6,780 nt of DNA from Nitrospinota bacterium (GTDB taxonomy: Bacteria > JADFOP01), in assembly GCA_022562795.1 (NCBI GenBank), contig JADFOP010000064.1, positions 1-6,780 on the forward strand, in the 5' to 3' direction. The notes beneath the pieces are model-generated. The model saw only the letters and a list, made by a program, of their open reading frames with translations, did not search any database and was not told the origin of the DNA. How positions within the stretch are numbered: position 1 is the first letter of the stretch; each line of letters begins with the position of its first letter. Of the stretch, positions 1 to 6,780 are shown piece after piece. Made by a program: the position numbers and the translations under genes.

Positions 1-13
1 ATACGAGGCGACG

Positions 14-118
14 ATGAGACGAGTCGGCGAGGGCTTCCCCCTCAAACGAGCCATCCCATTTCTGGCCTTACCGCTTACTTTCTTACTCCTGTGCGGTCAG
101 CTAGAAGCCCAAGCCTCG
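14..118 (+). other. Signal peptide region of the repeat protein
   Basis: This covers codons 1-35. It has an n-region with RR and KR, a hydrophobic stretch of about 16 residues, and a small-x-small site at AQA before Ser35. A Cys lies in the core (LLLCGQ), but the residues before it do not fit a lipobox, so signal peptidase I cleavage is the better reading. The exact cleavage residue is inferred. Confidence 0.75.
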
Positions 119-2425
119 CGCCCTAACGTCAAGTTCTTCTACAAGGCGGGCAAGGTCGTCCGCCAAGAGATGGATAAGGACCGAGACGGCCGGACGGATG
201 TCTGGTTCATGTATGAGCAAGGCGTGCTCATCAGGCAGGAGGAGGATACCGACGGCAACGGCCGAGCCGATGTATGGTATCACTACGAAGGAAACCGGCT
301 CAAAAAGCAAGAGAAGGACAGCAATGGGGACGGCAAGCCCGATGCCTGGTATTTCCTCAATGAACGAGGGGACCTTGAGAGGACATGGAAAGATACCAAC
401 TACGACCGAAAAGTTGACCGCTTCGGCTACTACGAGCGAGGGCGTCTCGTTCGCCAAGAAGGCGATACCAACGCAGACGGAAAGGTGGACCTCCTCGTCC
501 ATTACAACGCCGCCGGGAAGGTTATCAAGCGGCAGGAGGCGACGGGCAAGACGGGGGAGCTCAATTTCACGGCCATTTACAATAGCGCCGGCCAGCCGAT
601 ACGGGACGAAGAGGATACCAATGGCGATGGGTTTCCTGACATCATCCACTACTACAAGAACGGTCAGCTCCAGCGGCGCCTGGACGATACGAACGGGGAC
701 GGGAAGATCAACCTCTGGAGCTTCTTCATGGGCGGCCAAATGGTCAGGCGGGAGGCCGACACGAGTAAGGACGGCCGGGCCAACGTAATCACCCACTACC
801 GGAATAAGCAGCTGCTGAAACAGGAAGAGGACACCAACGGCGACGGTAAAATGGATGTCGTCTTTCTCTACGAGGGGGGCAAGATTGCACAGCGCAAAGA
901 AGATACTAACCACGATGGGCACTTTGACCTAACGGCATTATACCGGGGCGAAAAAGTGGTCAAGGAGGTGAGCGACCTCGACGCCGACGGCAGGCCCAAT
1001 GTCTCGACCTACTACGAGGGCGGCAAAATTGCTCGCGTCGAGGAAGACACCAACGGCGACGGCCGGATCGACCTTACAAGCTTCTACAAGGGTGGCGTGC
1101 GGGTGCGCCGGGAGGTGGACTCCGACAAGGACGGCCGGGTGGACCAATGGGAGACCTATAAGGCTAAGAAGTTGGTCCTCCAGGAGGTCGATAAGAACAG
1201 GGATGGCAAAAAAGACGTTATAGTCCACTATGATAGAGGCGTCGTCACCCGCCGGGAGGTCGACTCCAACAGGGACGGCCGCTTCGATATCGTAACCTAC
1301 TACAAGGGGGGCAAGGTCTCGCGCCAGGAGGAGGACAAAAACGGCGACGGCACCTTCGAATTTGTTATCTACTACCGGGCTGGCAAGATTTCCCAACAGG
1401 AGGAAGACAAAAACGGGGACGGCAGCGTGGATCTCTGGAGCTATTTCATCGGAGACCGGCTTGATAAGCAGGAGAAGGATTCCAACGGCGACGGCAAGGC
1501 CGATCTCTGGTTTTTCATGAACCAGGCAGGCAACCTAGAGCGCCATTGGAAGGATACCAACTTCGACGGGAAGCAAGACGTCTGGGTCTCCTATAGCGGG
1601 GGCAAGAAGGTCAAACAGGAGGCCGACACCGACTTTGACGGCGAGGTCGACCTCGTGCTGACCTATTCGGACAACGAACGGCTCGCCAAGCGGGAGGAGC
1701 GCCGTCGTAAGGAGGGCATGCTCGTCTCCTTTTATGATCGCTGGGGCAACCTGGAGCGGGAGGAGGAGGACAGAGACGAAGACGGACGCCCTGATGCCAT
1801 CTATCACTACAATGGCAAGAAGCTCGTCAGGGCCGAAGAGGCGAGAAAGGGCAAGGGCCGGATCGACCGCTGGTCGTATTACAAGAACAACCTCCTGGTT
1901 CGTCAGGAAGACGACACCGACGGCGACGGAAAGCCCGACCTCAAGAGCTTCTTTAGGAACAAGGTTTTGGTTCGTGTCGAGCAGGACCCCGATGAGGACG
2001 GGCGACCAAATGTGACGCAGCACTTGAAGAGGGGCAAGATCGTGCGGGAAGAGCGCGATGCCAACGGCGACGGAAAGCCCGATCTCGTTCTCGAATATAA
2101 GGACGAGAAGCTGGTCAAGAAATCAGAGGACACCGACTTTGACGGGCGCCCCAACGCCGTCTCCCACTACGAGGGCGGGGCTTTAGTCCTCCTTGAGGAA
2201 GATACAAACAAGGACGGCCAATTTGACGTCGTCTCCCACTACGAGGGCAAGAAGCTCGTCAGTCAAGAGGCCGACAGCAATCACGACGGCCGAATAGATA
2301 GATGGAATTACTATAAGCGCGGAAAGCTCTCCCGCCATGAGGAAGACGACAACGGCGATGGTCGACCCGACAGGCGGTGGACTTACGACTCCAAGGGCCA
2401 AATTACGAGCCTCGAGACCCTTTGA
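14..2425 (+). CDS. Exported repeat protein with ~32 calcium-loop/YY-GGK units
   Basis: No named family is recognised with certainty. The ATG is preceded by GAGG with a 5-nt spacing. Residues 1-34 form a Sec signal peptide: an Arg/Lys n-region, hydrophobic core AIPFLALPLTFLLL, likely cleavage after LEAQA. The rest is a solenoid of about 24-residue units, each a D-x-[ND]-x-D-G-x-x-D loop followed by a strand of the form [WY]xxYYxGGKxxRxEx. About 28 loops are near-canonical and about three units have lost the loop. The nine-residue loop resembles those of FG-GAP/VCBS and thrombospondin type 3 repeats, known Ca2+ ligands. The YY-G-K strand recalls MORN/YwqK-type repeats. I infer a Ca2+-stabilised exported or surface protein. 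No enzyme motif, transmembrane anchor or C-terminal sorting signal is visible; the protein ends within its last repeat. It converges on the exbB-exbD operon. Confidence 0.9.
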   Translation: MRRVGEGFPLKRAIPFLALPLTFLLLCGQLEAQASRPNVKFFYKAGKVVRQEMDKDRDGRTDVWFMYEQGVLIRQEEDTDGNGRADVWYHYEGNRLKKQEKDSNGDGKPDAWYFLNERGDLERTWKDTNYDRKVDRFGYYERGRLVRQEGDTNADGKVDLLVHYNAAGKVIKRQEATGKTGELNFTAIYNSAGQPIRDEEDTNGDGFPDIIHYYKNGQLQRRLDDTNGDGKINLWSFFMGGQMVRREADTSKDGRANVITHYRNKQLLKQEEDTNGDGKMDVVFLYEGGKIAQRKEDTNHDGHFDLTALYRGEKVVKEVSDLDADGRPNVSTYYEGGKIARVEEDTNGDGRIDLTSFYKGGVRVRREVDSDKDGRVDQWETYKAKKLVLQEVDKNRDGKKDVIVHYDRGVVTRREVDSNRDGRFDIVTYYKGGKVSRQEEDKNGDGTFEFVIYYRAGKISQQEEDKNGDGSVDLWSYFIGDRLDKQEKDSNGDGKADLWFFMNQAGNLERHWKDTNFDGKQDVWVSYSGGKKVKQEADTDFDGEVDLVLTYSDNERLAKREERRRKEGMLVSFYDRWGNLEREEEDRDEDGRPDAIYHYNGKKLVRAEEARKGKGRIDRWSYYKNNLLVRQEDDTDGDGKPDLKSFFRNKVLVRVEQDPDEDGRPNVTQHLKRGKIVREERDANGDGKPDLVLEYKDEKLVKKSEDTDFDGRPNAVSHYEGGALVLLEEDTNKDGQFDVVSHYEGKKLVSQEADSNHDGRIDRWNYYKRGKLSRHEEDDNGDGRPDRRWTYDSKGQITSLETL
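116..2422 (+). repeat. Coding tandem repeat array, ~72-bp period
   Basis: About 32 degenerate in-frame units of about 24 codons run from just after the signal peptide to the stop. The recurring DNA core, aac-ggc-gac-ggc and variants, encodes N-G-D-G. Units are diverged in DNA but conserved at the Asp/Asn/Gly loop positions and the aromatic pair, which indicates selection on protein rather than fresh slippage. Loop-less units lie near residues 177-200, 564-585 and 610-630. Confidence 0.85.
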
Positions 2426-2627: not shown

Positions 2628-3026
2628 TTATTGAACCGCGACGCCGATGTCGCGGATCTGAGCGTCTTTGACGAAGCCCATGACCTTGACCACGTCACCG
2701 TAGGGCAGACGTTTGTCGGCCTTGATAATTGCGCTACCTCTTTTCGCCGTCTTCATCTGCCGCTTTAGCTCGACCTCCAGCTCATCAAAAGTAACAAGCT
2801 TGCCGTTCAGGTGAATCCTCTTATCGATGCCCATCTCGATGATAAACGACTTGACCTTCTCGATGACCTGGGCCGCCTTGGCTTCTGGCAGCTGAATGTC
2901 AAGCCGGCGGGTGAAGTCAATAAAGGCCGTCGAGACCATGAAGAAGATGAGGAGGAGGAATATGACGTCTATCAGTGGGGTGAGCTGGAGGCTGTAGTCT
3001 TCCTCCGCTTCTTTACGAAACTGCAT
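2628..3026 (-). CDS. exbD: ExbD/TolR-family biopolymer transport protein
   Basis: This is the single-span inner-membrane subunit of an ExbB-ExbD (TolQ-TolR) proton-driven motor that energises outer-membrane processes. The 132-residue length is typical. A short charged cytoplasmic N-terminus (MQFRKEAEEDY) leads into the hallmark segment LTPLIDVIFLLLIFFM, residues 15-30. Asp20 is the conserved membrane-embedded proton-carrying residue of the family. The periplasmic domain follows, with the usual IKADKRLPYGDVVKVM-type motif near residues 104-120 and a C-terminus at DIGVAVQ. The ATG is preceded by AAGGAAGAGGG with 7-nt spacing, inside the end of the upstream exbB. Only 3 nt separate that stop from this start, so translation is probably coupled. 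ExbD and TolR cannot be told apart safely, because no tonB, tolA or tolB is visible in the window. Confidence 0.93.
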   Translation of the reverse strand: MQFRKEAEEDYSLQLTPLIDVIFLLLIFFMVSTAFIDFTRRLDIQLPEAKAAQVIEKVKSFIIEMGIDKRIHLNGKLVTFDELEVELKRQMKTAKRGSAIIKADKRLPYGDVVKVMGFVKDAQIRDIGVAVQ

Positions 3027-3029
3027 GGC

Positions 3030-3782
3030 CTAGCCCTCTTCCTTGGCAACCTCTTTTGCTCGGTAGGCAAGCTCCTCGAGGAGCTTCAAGCTGATCTCTT
3101 CCATCTCAAAGACGTACTTGTCGACCCTGCCCCTGAAGACGTGGTAGAGAGCCAGGGCGGGGATTCCGACGACGAGCCCCGAGGCCGTGGTGATTAGAGC
3201 CTCGGCGATACCTCCGGCGACGAGGCCCGGGTTTCCGGTGCCGCTTTGAGAAATGACGTTGAACGCCTTGATCATCCCCATCACCGTGCCTAGAAGCCCG
3301 AGCATCGGCGCCAGGTTCGCTATGGCGCCAAGGACCCGCAGGTTCGATACCAGCAGCCCCGCCTCGTGGTTTCCGGCTCCTTCAATAGCCCGCTCCATCT
3401 CTAAAAACCCGTACTCAAAACGCATGAGGCCTCCCCTCAGAATCCGGGCGATGGAGATGTCCCACTCCTGACAGGCCTCAATGGCTTTCGACACATCGTG
3501 GCGATACCAGTGGCGCTGGATATCTTCGAGAAATTCCGGGTGGATGATTTTGGAGCGGCGGAGGTTGAAGAGTCGCTCGAAGCAGATAGCCAGAGCGGCG
3601 ATGGAGCAGAAGAGTATAGGGTACATGACGACTCCTCCGCGCCGGAAAAGGCTGAGGACCGCCCAGCCCTCATCACCGCCCGTTGGGACCGGTTTCTGTT
3701 GGGCCAGAGCAGGCAACACCCAGGGTGCGAATATTAGAACGAATAGAGCAAGGCTCGCGGCGATGATTAGGCGCCTGGTCAT
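3030..3782 (-). CDS. exbB: ExbB/TolQ/MotA-family proton channel protein
   Basis: This 250-residue polytopic inner-membrane subunit assembles with the ExbD encoded next to it into a proton-conducting motor. I chose the ATG at 3782 because GGAGG lies 9 nt upstream and the protein then opens with a signal-peptide-like MTRRLIIAASLALFVLIF and an ALA-QQ site near residue 27. Some ExbB proteins do carry such an N-terminal extension. A TTG at 3833 would add 17 unsupported residues. Membrane segments lie near residues 50-68 (GGVVMYPILF), 148-170 (NLAPMLGLLGTVMGM, the family signature) and 192-214 (AEALITTASGLVVGIPAL). The large cytoplasmic loop falls between the first and second segments, as expected. 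A strong promoter lies upstream, but a terminator-like hairpin intervenes, suggesting controlled readthrough. Confidence 0.93.
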   Translation of the reverse strand: MTRRLIIAASLALFVLIFAPWVLPALAQQKPVPTGGDEGWAVLSLFRRGGVVMYPILFCSIAALAICFERLFNLRRSKIIHPEFLEDIQRHWYRHDVSKAIEACQEWDISIARILRGGLMRFEYGFLEMERAIEGAGNHEAGLLVSNLRVLGAIANLAPMLGLLGTVMGMIKAFNVISQSGTGNPGLVAGGIAEALITTASGLVVGIPALALYHVFRGRVDKYVFEMEEISLKLLEELAYRAKEVAKEEG

Positions 3783-3791
3783 GCTTATAGT

Positions 3792-3796
3792 CCTCC
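3792..3796 (-). promoter_or_regulatory. Ribosome binding site of exbB
   Basis: GGAGG on the minus strand lies 9 nt before the ATG at 3782. It decides the start in favour of this ATG over the in-frame TTG at 3833. Confidence 0.8.
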
Positions 3797-3842
3797 GTTG
3801 GTTGAGCGCCTCTTGAATGATTTGACCCACCAAGGGCGAATT

Positions 3843-4072: not shown

Positions 4073-4903
4073 GTGAGGAAGGAAGGCGTAGCGGTCTTGG
4101 TCGCGGCTTTAACGGCCTCTATGGCTCTGGCTGCGGGGTGCGCCACCGAGACGGGTCGCGGAACCCTCGGCGGCCTCGTCTACGGCTCAATGGTAGGCAC
4201 CTCCATCGCTCCCGGCATCGGCTCTGCCATCGGTGCGGGCGTTGGGATGGTCGCCGGGGCGATTGAAGGAACCCAGAAAGAAGAGGTCGAGAAGGCTAGA
4301 GAGGAAGCATACCGCCGGGCGTTTTATCCCACAGAAGGTGAAATTTCGAGAACGGCCGCCGCCCGACGGGAGGGTGCTCCTTTCTCAAGCGAGTCGGGGC
4401 AGGCCTCCGACAGCTTCAGCAATCTCCTCGCTCTCCAGGACGACCAACCCATCGTCTCCATGCTAGAGAGAGAAGTCCACGAGACTGAGTCGCCGGGCCG
4501 GGTCGCGGGCAAGCCGGAGGCCGAAGCGGTGGCGATGGCCTCGGACGTTGCGAACCTATACCAGGAGTTGAGCGAGGTCCGCCGGGAGCGTAGCGACCTG
4601 GAAGCTCGGGTGGGCCTTCTCGCCGCGCTCCTAGAGGAATACGACCGGTCCGGCCGGACCTCCAAAGCCCTGCTGGAGAAGATGGAGGAGGCGCTGGGAC
4701 GACCTCCCAGGAATGATGTCGCCTCACCAGCGGGCCAGGAAAGCCCCGAGCTCCTCTACCTTCAGCAGGAATACGAGATCGCCCTCAGGATTGGAAACGC
4801 TCCCCTTGCCGAGGCGCTTGCCCGCCGCTTCGAGCGCCTGGCGGGCCGAAGGCCTCATCGGAGCCCCCTATCGTCTCCGCCGCCTCTGCCCACTAGACGA
4901 TAA
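4073..4903 (+). CDS. Glycine-zipper lipoprotein with coiled coil
   Basis: The GTG start is the earliest possible, since an in-frame TAG lies at 4067-4069. A run of six G lies 10 nt upstream as a poor Shine-Dalgarno. It keeps the basic n-region MRKEG before the hydrophobic core and lipobox-like AAGC, giving lipidation at Cys23. The -3 position is Ala rather than Leu, so the box is near-canonical. Residues 34-66 form a regular glycine zipper: G34, G38, G42, then G50, G54, G58, G62 and G66, every fourth residue. This suits a membrane-inserting helical hairpin. Residues 157-190 form a charged heptad-like coiled coil, and 244-276 form a second helix with a Pro/Arg-rich tail. Length is 276 residues. 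No specific family is recognised. It sits 67 nt upstream of the ECF sigma gene on the same strand and may be co-transcribed with it. Confidence 0.8.
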   Translation: MRKEGVAVLVAALTASMALAAGCATETGRGTLGGLVYGSMVGTSIAPGIGSAIGAGVGMVAGAIEGTQKEEVEKAREEAYRRAFYPTEGEISRTAAARREGAPFSSESGQASDSFSNLLALQDDQPIVSMLEREVHETESPGRVAGKPEAEAVAMASDVANLYQELSEVRRERSDLEARVGLLAALLEEYDRSGRTSKALLEKMEEALGRPPRNDVASPAGQESPELLYLQQEYEIALRIGNAPLAEALARRFERLAGRRPHRSPLSSPPPLPTRR

Positions 4904-4970: not shown

Positions 4971-5603
4971 ATGGACAAACCGAGCGTTCAGGTCGATAGA
5001 GAGGCATTTGAGGCAGCGGCCCTGCCGCACCTCGACGCCTGCTACGGGTTTGCCCTGCGCCTGACCCGAAACGTGGAGGAAGCCGAGGACCTCGTTCAAG
5101 ACGCGATCCTTCGGGCCCTACAGTACTTCCATCGCTTTGAGCCCGGCACAAATTTCAGAGCCTGGATATTCAAAGTCCTCCTGAACACCTTCATCAACTC
5201 CTACCGCAAGGGCGCGGCGGCGAGGGAAGGCCCCTCTTCCCATAACCTGGAGCTGTTGCACGAACGGATGGTCGGCACGCAGGGGCCCCACCCGAGCAGC
5301 GACCCCGAGCGGGCCGCCATTGGCCGTCAGGCGGCTAGAGCGCTGCACGAAGCCCTGGAGAAGCTCCCCGAGGCGTTCCGCACCGTCGTCCACCTGGCCG
5401 ACATCGAAGGGTGCGCTTACAAGGAGATAGCCTCAATCGTTGGCTGCCCCATTGGAACGGTGATGTCGCGGCTCCATCGGGCCCGCCGTCTTCTTCAAGC
5501 GGCTCTCGTTCCCCACGCGCCCCACCGCATCTCAACAACGACCCCCAAAGAAGAGGAATCAGGCGAGAGCGGCCGGGCGGGGTCACAAAAAGAGTCCTTG
5601 TAG
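4971..5603 (+). CDS. ECF-type RNA polymerase sigma factor (SigR/SigH/RpoE-like)
   Basis: This 210-residue sigma factor has region 2 at about residues 15-80 (AEDLVQDAILRAL, then GTNFRAWIFKVLLNTFINSY). Region 4 lies at about 123-177, with LPEAFRTVVHLADIEG leading into the helix-turn-helix YKEIASIVGCPIGTVMSRLH. The GTN-AW-NTFINSYRK and GTVMSRLHRAR strings match the group containing actinobacterial SigR/SigH. It has no region 1 or 3, so it is an ECF protein that directs RNA polymerase to stress or envelope promoters. GGGTAGGGGG lies about 11 nt before the ATG, a weak Shine-Dalgarno. SigR-type factors are usually followed by a zinc anti-sigma gene; here more than 600 nt of gene-free DNA follows. 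The last 30 residues (after HAPHR) are low-complexity and outside the sigma fold. Confidence 0.93.
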   Translation: MDKPSVQVDREAFEAAALPHLDACYGFALRLTRNVEEAEDLVQDAILRALQYFHRFEPGTNFRAWIFKVLLNTFINSYRKGAAAREGPSSHNLELLHERMVGTQGPHPSSDPERAAIGRQAARALHEALEKLPEAFRTVVHLADIEGCAYKEIASIVGCPIGTVMSRLHRARRLLQAALVPHAPHRISTTTPKEEESGESGRAGSQKESL

Positions 5604-5613
5604 ACACAGGACC

Positions 5614-5656
5614 GACCAAAGGTCGCTTGCGACCCAGCCAAAGGCTGCCTGCAGCA
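5614..5656. repeat. Tandem pair of ~21-nt hairpins with covarying stems
   Basis: Unit 1 (5614-5634) contains GGTCGC-TT-GCGACC. Unit 2 (5636-5656) contains GGCTGC-CT-GCAGC. Both begin with CCAAAGG. The stem pair TC/GA in the first is CT/AG in the second, so the sequences differ while pairing is kept. No T-run follows, so a terminator role for the sigma gene is not supported. Confidence 0.6.
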
Positions 5657-5686
5657 CCCCGACACCACCAGCCCGCCTAAGGCGGA
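5657..5686. repeat. 30-bp direct repeat, copy 1
   Basis: It starts CCCCGACACCACCAG and ends in the palindrome CCGCCT-A-AGGCGG. It matches 6005-6034 at 29 of 30 positions; the one difference falls in the single-base centre of the palindrome. Confidence 0.8.
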
Positions 5687-5710
5687 CTTCCCGCTCCCTG
5701 CCCTAAAGGC

Positions 5711-5736
5711 CGGACACCCACGAGGGGCGTCCCTAC
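5711..5736 (-). repeat. REP-like palindrome, copy 1 (minus orientation)
   Basis: Read on the minus strand it opens GTAGGGAC and closes GTCCG, with a GCCCC/GGGTG-type variable middle. It shares AAAGGCCGGACA and GTCCCTACATAAC flanks with copy 3 (5705-5741 versus 5833-5868). Confidence 0.65.
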
Positions 5737-5773
5737 ATAACAAGAGAACGGACAATACATTGCCCTATCCTGT

Positions 5774-5798
5774 GTAGGGACAGGGTTTACCCTGTCCG
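5774..5798 (+). repeat. REP-like palindrome, copy 2 (plus orientation)
   Basis: GTAGGGACAG-GG-TTTA-CC-CTGTCCG; the arms GGACAGGG and CCCTGTCC form an 8-bp stem with a TTTA loop. It is identical over 26 nt to the copy at 5900-5924 (one more base on the left also matches), and the downstream GTATGAAGG is shared too. Confidence 0.75.
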
Positions 5799-5838
5799 TG
5801 CGTATGAAGGCGGGTCGTTGTTCGAAAGGCCAAAAGGC

Positions 5839-5863
5839 CGGACAGCCTAAAGGCTGTCCCTAC
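5839..5863 (-). repeat. REP-like palindrome, copy 3 (minus orientation)
   Basis: On the minus strand it reads GTAGGGACAG-CC-TTTA-GG-CTGTCCG. Compared with copies 2 and 4, only two stem base pairs differ (GG/CC becomes CC/GG), and both are swapped on both arms, so pairing is preserved. Confidence 0.75.
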
Positions 5864-5899
5864 ATAACCAGAATTCGATGGTTTGGGGACGAATCCCCT

Positions 5900-5924
5900 G
5901 TAGGGACAGGGTTTACCCTGTCCG
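5900..5924 (+). repeat. REP-like palindrome, copy 4 (plus orientation)
   Basis: It is identical to copy 2 across the core and in the same orientation, 126 nt further on. Copies 1 and 3 are 128 nt apart. The cluster is therefore a two-fold repeat of a head-to-head pair with a period of about 127 nt. Confidence 0.75.
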
Positions 5925-5987
5925 CGGGTATGAAGGGCGAGACGTGTATACGGAGAGGGTTTATATATGCCCTCATAAAACCGGGTA

Positions 5988-6011
5988 GTCGGGGTCACCC
6001 CTGACCCCGAC
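5988..6011. repeat. 10-bp-arm hairpin
   Basis: GTCGGGGTCA (5988-5997) and TGACCCCGAC (6002-6011) are perfect inverted arms around CCCC. The right arm overlaps the start of the second copy of the 30-bp direct repeat. No T-run follows on either strand. Confidence 0.65.
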
Positions 6012-6034
6012 ACCACCAGCCCGCCTCAGGCGGA
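6005..6034. repeat. 30-bp direct repeat, copy 2
   Basis: It matches 5657-5686 except for one base at the palindrome centre (C for A). The two copies enclose the whole REP-like cluster, about 318 bp between them. After this copy GATGACCCCGACGCC continues with further partial echoes of the motif. Confidence 0.8.
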
Positions 6035-6235: not shown

Positions 6236-6780
6236 TTAATCATCACTCGCTTTCGGGACGCAGGTGTCAAACCCGCCGGTGGAGAAGACGTTGCCGCCGA
6301 GGTCCGTCGCGGCGCCGGCGGAGCCGGTGCAGTCAGAATCGGTATCGTCGTCGCCCGCGCCGGCCAGGTCGGTCCGGTTGCCCCTCATGATGTTGTCCTC
6401 AAGGGTCGTATCAGTCCCGCCGTCGTTCTCGATACCCGTCCCGCGGTTTCTGATCGCCCTGTTGCCGACCATGGTGATCGTCGCGCTGTCGCCGTCTATG
6501 TCGAACCCATCCCCGTCGTTTCCCTTGGCCACGTTCTTAATCAGGTCCGTCGTTTCGGAGCCGCCATCTATATCAAAGCCGTCCCGCGCGTTGGTGAATG
6601 CCCTGTTTCCAGAGATCAAGGAATCATCGATGTCATCGAGCTCGAAGCCCTCGTCGCCGTTGTCTCTGGCCAGGTTCTTCTCAATGACCCCATCTATGAA
6701 CCCATTAATTTCGAAGCCATCGCCTTGGTTCCTGATGGCAACGTTCCCAGAGAGGGTGGTATCATCGAAGTCATTGAGCA
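6236..6780 (-). CDS. Right-handed parallel beta-helix repeat protein (C-terminal part, runs off window)
   Basis: The frame is open from the TAA at 6238-6236 to the window edge, about 180 residues, so the 5' end lies outside. The tempting TTG at 6619 is internal: translation upstream of it continues the same repeats (GDGFEINGF, NLARDNGDEGFELDDI). Units of about 23 residues follow the pattern xISGNxAxxNxxDGFDIDG. This is the NosD/Pbh1-like parallel beta-helix signature found in exported, often surface or carbohydrate-related proteins. The last about 45 residues are Asp/Gly-rich with two Cys (SDCTGSAG and FDTCVPK), possibly a disulfide-capped end. No catalytic residues can be assigned. A strong terminator follows downstream. 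Confidence 0.85.
   Translation of the reverse strand, partial: LNDFDDTTLSGNVAIRNQGDGFEINGFIDGVIEKNLARDNGDEGFELDDIDDSLISGNRAFTNARDGFDIDGGSETTDLIKNVAKGNDGDGFDIDGDSATITMVGNRAIRNRGTGIENDGGTDTTLEDNIMRGNRTDLAGAGDDDTDSDCTGSAGAATDLGGNVFSTGGFDTCVPKASDD

Follow-up and report, generated by a model that had tools for sequence, protein, structure and literature searches.

Here, we describe an exported repeat protein of a Nitrospinota bacterium that is encoded beside the genes of an Exb-TonB motor, and we show that its partnership with tonB is conserved across distant bacterial lineages. The repeating unit is predicted to join a MORN-like beta-hairpin to a calcium-type loop, and the protein very probably works with the TonB system. 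Most diderm bacteria rely on TonB motors to drive the uptake of nutrients through the outer membrane, and the way in which force is passed across the periplasm remains a matter of debate; a tonB neighbour that is widely conserved and predicted to have a stiff, calcium-dependent fold offers a concrete new handle on these motors. The finding also accounts for a family whose members are at present filed in databases under "adhesin", "FG-GAP" or hypothetical protein. An earlier note on this DNA, made from the sequence alone, had described the repeat and missed its conserved partnership with tonB, exbB and exbD, which is the new and testable point and gives the repeat protein a probable job.

The window analysed here is a whole contig (C64) of 6,780 nucleotides, which opens with the repeat gene:

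1..13, plus strand: contig end upstream of the repeat gene
14..2425, plus strand: gene of the exported hairpin-array protein, 803 aa with ATG start; the orthologue in the sister species is 75% identical
14..115, plus strand: signal peptide, residues 1-34, cleavage between AQA and S (34/35), assigned by eye
125..2422, plus strand: 32 beta-hairpins and 31 inter-hairpin Dx[DN]xDGxxD loops, residues 38-803
536..562, plus strand: degenerate loop EATGKTGEL, residue 175
1697..1723, plus strand: degenerate loop EERRRKEGM, residue 562
1841..1867, plus strand: degenerate loop EARKGKGRI, residue 610

Splitting the array with the loop pattern D.[NDS].D[GR]. gave 27 matches spaced by 24 residues, twice by 25, and by 48-50 across degenerate or variant loops; with four variant loops added, 31 loops at a spacing of 24-26 were obtained. 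The earlier reading of about 32 units of 24 residues in an exported protein with no other domain is borne out by these 31 loops and by the 32 hairpins of the AlphaFold2 model, as well as by the signal peptide and by repeats that run at a period of 24 residues as far as the C-terminus; Cys27 of the signal peptide lies outside any lipobox. Its estimate of up to about 28 calcium-type loops holds if DTDGNGRAD is counted, Dx[DN]x[DN]G then being kept in 28/31 loops, and falls to 27 on a strict count, with three loops degenerate (each at the same place in the orthologue). The unit consensus is D-T-N-G-D-G-R/K-x-D-V/L-x-x-Y/H-Y-x-G-G-K-L-V-R-Q-E-E, far beyond chance, with most information at loop positions 1, 5, 6 and 9 (D1 28/31, D5 27/31, G6 28/31; D9 23/31, with N instead in 5/31) and with Y14 in 23/31.

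Comparison with the sister-species orthologue shows where this unit is constrained. The D/G positions of the loop are 90-100% identical, whereas only 40-70% identity is seen at the loop spacers 2 and 4 and at positions 15 and 16, which form an exposed turn. The value of dN (0.157) against dS (0.895), a dN/dS of about 0.18, indicates purifying selection on the repeat gene. Aligned to each other, the orthologues are set apart by one complete 24-residue unit and three single-residue gaps. No tandem repeats at the DNA level were found inside the gene. The array is hence both old and under protein-level selection.

Structure prediction, which the earlier note had proposed as a check, was performed with AlphaFold2 on residues 36-297, with eight relatives in the alignment, and separately on the full-length protein. 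Residues 36-297 gave tandem hairpins with motif-filled loops at high confidence (pLDDT 94.1, pTM 0.81); each modelled unit consists of a strand of about six residues, a two-residue turn, a strand of about seven residues and then a nine-residue loop that coincides exactly with Dx[DN]xDGxxD. The full-length model is helix-free and carries the same pattern through 32 hairpins to the end (pLDDT 87.7), with the signal peptide region disordered (pLDDT about 30) and a pTM of 0.43 that is expected because the overall bend of a long repeat is uncertain. Hairpins are retained in modelled units whose loop is lost. Among structure-search matches, the single-layer sheets of OspA scored as high as Z 11.5, with an rmsd of 5-12; for the beta-hairpin domain of glycosyltransferases of the TarM/SdgB type, Z was 9-10.7 and the rmsd about 3 across 100 residues; MORN1 of Toxoplasma was matched at Z 9.0, below the OspA sheets; Rhs/Tc/teneurin YD shells gave a Foldseek E of 1e-7, yet a TM of only about 0.2. 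The MORN-type trait of one hairpin per unit of about 23 residues in an open sheet is present in the predicted model. These models support reading each unit as a MORN-like beta-hairpin plus a calcium-type loop. The loop lies exactly between hairpins, and the earlier proposal that loop and MORN-like strand form one unit is largely right as a predicted unit structure.

The loops themselves belong to a recognized class. A 2011 survey by Rigden et al. gives 16 structural contexts for Dx[DN]xDG calcium loops (PMC3123361), and 28 loops of the repeat protein fit the class of Rigden and Galperin, namely Dx[DN]xDG followed by one later acidic ligand at spacing 2 (PMC3123361). A text search of PMC3123361 found no hairpin, solenoid or MORN context for the loop. 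The predicted hairpin rod, if true, would be a new one.

Profile searches place the protein between families. The only Pfam match over its cut-off is FG-GAP_3 (PF13517; 31.7 vs 26.9 bits), from which automatic annotation would assign an FG-GAP/VCBS beta-propeller; this match reflects the loop rather than the architecture. A propeller would repeat at about 60 residues with four strands, the array here repeats at 24 with two, the high-confidence AlphaFold2 model is an open run of 32 hairpins, and the structures that match best are OspA, MORN and YD shells, no beta-propeller being among the matches listed. We regard a propeller as scarcely credible and reject it on the 24-residue period and the AlphaFold2 model.

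No MORN, TSP3 or EF-hand match was obtained in Pfam at E<=1, and a sequence search of the PDB returned weak EF-hand matches only (E>=0.1). However, NCBIfam NF050087 (Lsa25.6 family adhesin) aligns to 12 stretches of the protein (7.6e-42; for example, residues 414-502 onto profile positions 56-149) with 143.1 bits against a cut-off of 150, and relatives score 27.8-91 bits, also under that cut-off. The 24-residue unit is thus already modelled within a named family, and the array recurs in 27/386 genomes, so the earlier suggestion that this fusion is unique is wrong.

This best named match raises the reading that the protein is a secreted surface adhesin of the Lsa25.6 type, whose Ca2+ loops and charged strands bind extracellular polymers at the outer face; in vitro, Lsa25.6 made as a recombinant protein attached to laminin, plasminogen and fibrinogen (PMC7662565, PMC8657130). 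We give this reading little likelihood. The profile match covers part of the model only and stays under the curated cut-off, the Leptospira ligands are host proteins and irrelevant to an environmental Nitrospinota, the repeat protein has no surface anchor, and the tonB linkage and an N-terminal receptor fusion, both described below, point to the periplasm.

In the window, the repeat gene is followed by motor genes and a glycine-zipper gene:

2628..3026, minus strand: exbD/tolR-type gene, Pfam ExbD 2.1e-27, convergent with the repeat gene
3030..3833, minus strand: exbB/tolQ-type gene, Pfam MotA_ExbB 3.2e-30
4073..4903, plus strand: glycine-zipper protein, Gly-zipper_Omp 3.2e-05, just under cut-off, with a lipoprotein-like signal (GCATETGRG)

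The adjacency of tonB in the source genome rests on a contig-end overlap, in which the end of contig C6 and bases 1-260 of the window are 93% identical; that this identity is not full probably reflects strain variation. Just upstream of the repeat gene, C6 carries the gene of a 626-aa TonB (Pfam TonB_C 1.4e-8) and, beyond it, genes of a 159-aa exported protein (p159), a lipoprotein with a glycine zipper and a YhdP/AsmA-type protein. The sister species, Nitrospinae bacterium AH_259_B05_G02_I21, carries the glycine zipper, p159, tonB, repeat gene, exbD and exbB on a single contig (L022), as does a class relative (G002) for tonB, repeat gene, exbD and exbB; exbD occupies the same place in G001/L022 and lies nearby in G002. 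The source genome also contains a tolB elsewhere, near which lies an ExbB/TolQ homologue, and this makes the repeat-linked Exb-TonB a second system. The glycine-zipper protein is a possible outer-membrane partner of the repeat protein.

Several further features of these loci were observed. Between the repeat gene and exbD, which converge, positions 2475-2588 contain short A-rich direct repeats, GAAAATCSCGGAAAA in 10-nt steps plus a unit of about 40 nt, and no terminator-like hairpin was found there. An ECF sigma factor gene (4971-5603) adjoins the glycine-zipper gene, in the same order in the sister species, and might regulate the repeat/exb locus. Downstream of it, at 5656-6034, a unit of roughly 126 nt with inverted arms of 26 nt (GGACAGGGTTTACCCTGTCC) occurs in two diverged copies, and a direct repeat of 31 nt flanks them at 5656 and 6004; by its sequence, this region looks like a small mobile or palindromic element. 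The minus strand at 6236-6778 encodes the last 180 residues of a Beta_helix/NosD-like protein, a right-handed beta-helix with Asp/Gly-rich turns whose gene is cut by the contig end. In G002 (L016, 6226-8331), a lipoprotein with an LpoB-like part and FG-GAP repeats is divergent from exbB.

Across genomes, tonB is directly adjacent to the repeat gene in 46/66 repeat ORFs examined, from Nitrospinota, deltaproteobacterial and other lineages. All 46 linked pairs share a strand, and in most of them the end of tonB overlaps, or almost abuts, the start of the repeat gene. At loci labelled Nitrospinota, Deltaproteobacteria and Myxococcales, tonB adjoins the repeat gene, mostly together with exbB and exbD, and Pfam confirms TonB_C, ExbB and ExbD for the calls checked. 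TonB lies upstream of the repeat gene in L015, L017, L028 and L029, where the automatic "TonB_down" label reflects only a stop-to-stop frame overlap; the genuine exceptions are L025-L027, where TonB does lie downstream.

The linkage was also seen with a query that takes no account of neighbourhood. In a profile search of 386 sampled genomes with NF050087, 27 matched; TonB was adjacent in 10/24 fetched regions and in 13/26 genomes examined, a number that includes four previously seen (G000, G001, G002, G059). In the order of G155, the repeat protein occurs in 51/64 genomes (28/28 high-quality ones), and TonB lies within 1.5 kb, all of the flank examined, at 25/30 loci, two of the five others lying near contig ends. 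With the same models, TonB adjacency was seen in 0/20 FG-GAP control regions of 7-20 kb, a comparison to be read with the TonB/Exb HMMs having been seeded from linked loci and with some control genomes possibly lacking TonB. The plasmid collection returned only distant, unlinked matches, mainly in Gordonia. In the open-access literature on TonB with calcium repeats, MORN or EF-hand, we found no description of such a tonB neighbour; an article about how TolA and TonB evolved reports vWA and TPR genes in the vicinity of motor genes (PMC12204202) and nowhere uses the word calcium.

About a third of the repeat ORFs examined have no TonB nearby, which suggests that the fold is not TonB-specific and is used elsewhere too. 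Some of these genes belong to a cobalamin cluster, where they adjoin the gene of a CxxCH cytochrome-like protein, and some lie beside a thioredoxin-like gene; by eye, the repeat gene of L084 (3935-7165) and L113 sits within a cobalamin-type cluster and precedes the gene of a small lipoprotein that resembles a CxxCH cytochrome. Such unlinked copies in other clusters would suit a protein that shares an operon with tonB while doing separate work, for example as a scaffold of the envelope in general that is co-expressed because both respond to one stress. Operon sharing does not require contact, and operon position is no proof of contact with TonB. However, same-strand adjacency to tonB, often with overlapping ends, across very distant lineages, together with a fusion to a receptor, makes separate work quite unlikely, and membership of the repeat protein in the Exb-TonB system remains the likely reading.

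Neighbouring and fused genes suggest what the system may serve. Five clusters (G155, G096, G234 and, twice, G294) have a TonB-dependent receptor with plug and barrel no more than about 5 kb away. One of these clusters also has FecR and PepSY genes, and a small ABM-type monooxygenase adjoins the repeat gene in G096 (by Pfam) and G234 (by identical terminal sequence); these neighbours hint at iron or haem. One receptor of G037 starts with five repeats as its N-terminus, ahead of plug and barrel; by known receptor topology, this N-terminus is on the periplasmic side. In L025 and L021, repeats are fused to a glycine-zipper lipoprotein, by sequence. No plug domain was detected in G002, which has the locus, so a classic receptor cannot be the client there, and the Nitrospinota client may be a non-receptor such as the glycine-zipper proteins. 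At some deltaproteobacterial loci, a VWA protein may be the client. VWA-domain exported proteins occur near tonB-repeat genes in L025 (4858-6147) and L024 (2820-4790), for comparison with the vWA transducers of PMC12204202. Another G037 protein (L008, 1045-2232) has a zinc-ribbon-like N-terminus and a transmembrane stretch before its repeats, possibly a membrane-anchored version of the repeat protein.

Taken together, we think it fairly likely that the protein is a periplasmic, Ca2+-stapled hairpin rod that serves the Exb-TonB motor as a coupling or docking partner. The soluble rod would be one continuous run of 32 beta-hairpins, in which each Dx[DN]xDGxxD loop most likely holds Ca2+ and stiffens the joint between hairpins; Ca2+ binding by the protein is highly probable. 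ExbB-ExbD use the proton gradient to move TonB, and the rod would dock TonB or an outer-membrane client, which may be a TonB-dependent receptor in several lineages and possibly glycine-zipper lipoproteins in Nitrospinota, and would guide, extend or brace coupling across the periplasm by offering an extended surface. By our own estimate, a straight rod of 64 strands at 4.8 angstrom would measure about 30 nm, on the order of the periplasm. Array length nevertheless ranges from about 7 to 40 units across relatives, which argues against a fixed ruler spanning the periplasm; relatives with 7-10 units are too short to span it, making docking or bracing the safer wording. We further propose, tentatively, that in many Exb-TonB systems of several phyla such a rod is an unrecognised fourth component that docks TonB or the receptor and sets the transfer of force or client contact.

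A mechanical rather than metal-handling role is somewhat short of an even bet. Metal handling could take the form of a periplasmic buffer with a lanmodulin-like job, in which the loops capture Ca2+ or a lanthanide imported by the linked TonB system. The presence of up to 28 loops, the adjoining transport genes and lanmodulin matches (E 0.12 to 1e-4) would fit such a buffer, but these matches are weak and rest on the loop alone, strand positions 14, 22 and 23 are conserved too, the model is a sheet of hairpins and not of helices, and hairpins are kept in units with lost loops. We consider this particular buffer unlikely, and the docking or coupling rod remains our preferred reading.

The repeat protein shares single traits with several known systems. 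The Lsa25.6 adhesin (Leptospira LIC13059), known for in vitro host-protein binding, is likewise exported, and its profile aligns to runs of about four units; that profile has 196 positions, compared with 803 residues and 32 hairpins here, its curated cut-off is missed, and no TonB link of Lsa25.6 was found in PMC7662565 and PMC8657130. MORN repeats (PF02493, PF07661) also place one hairpin per 23-24 residues in an open single-layer sheet, whereas the repeat protein lacks a MORN Pfam match and its hairpins are joined by a nine-residue Dx[DN]xDGxxD loop. The OspA sheet and the Rhs/Tc/teneurin YD shells, the top structural matches, are tandem hairpins as well, but they have no recognised Dx[DN]xDG loops, are unrelated in sequence and gave an rmsd of 5-12 and a TM of about 0.2, respectively. 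FG-GAP/VCBS blades and thrombospondin type 3 repeats share the Dx[DN]xDGxxD loop; the former are propeller blades and the latter disulfide-linked wires, neither being hairpins at period 24.

Among motor accessories, TolB is a propeller and TtpC and CpoB have other folds. No sequence relation of the repeat protein to TolB, CpoB or the Ttp proteins was found. The repeat gene follows tonB as tolB follows tolA, and a role as a TolB substitute was considered and rejected, given the separate tolB of the genome. What the repeat protein has in common with TolB and CpoB of Tol-Pal, and with TtpC, TtpB2 and TtpD2 of the Vibrio TonB2 systems (PMC6957404), is that all are extra components encoded with an ExbB-ExbD-TonB/TolA motor.
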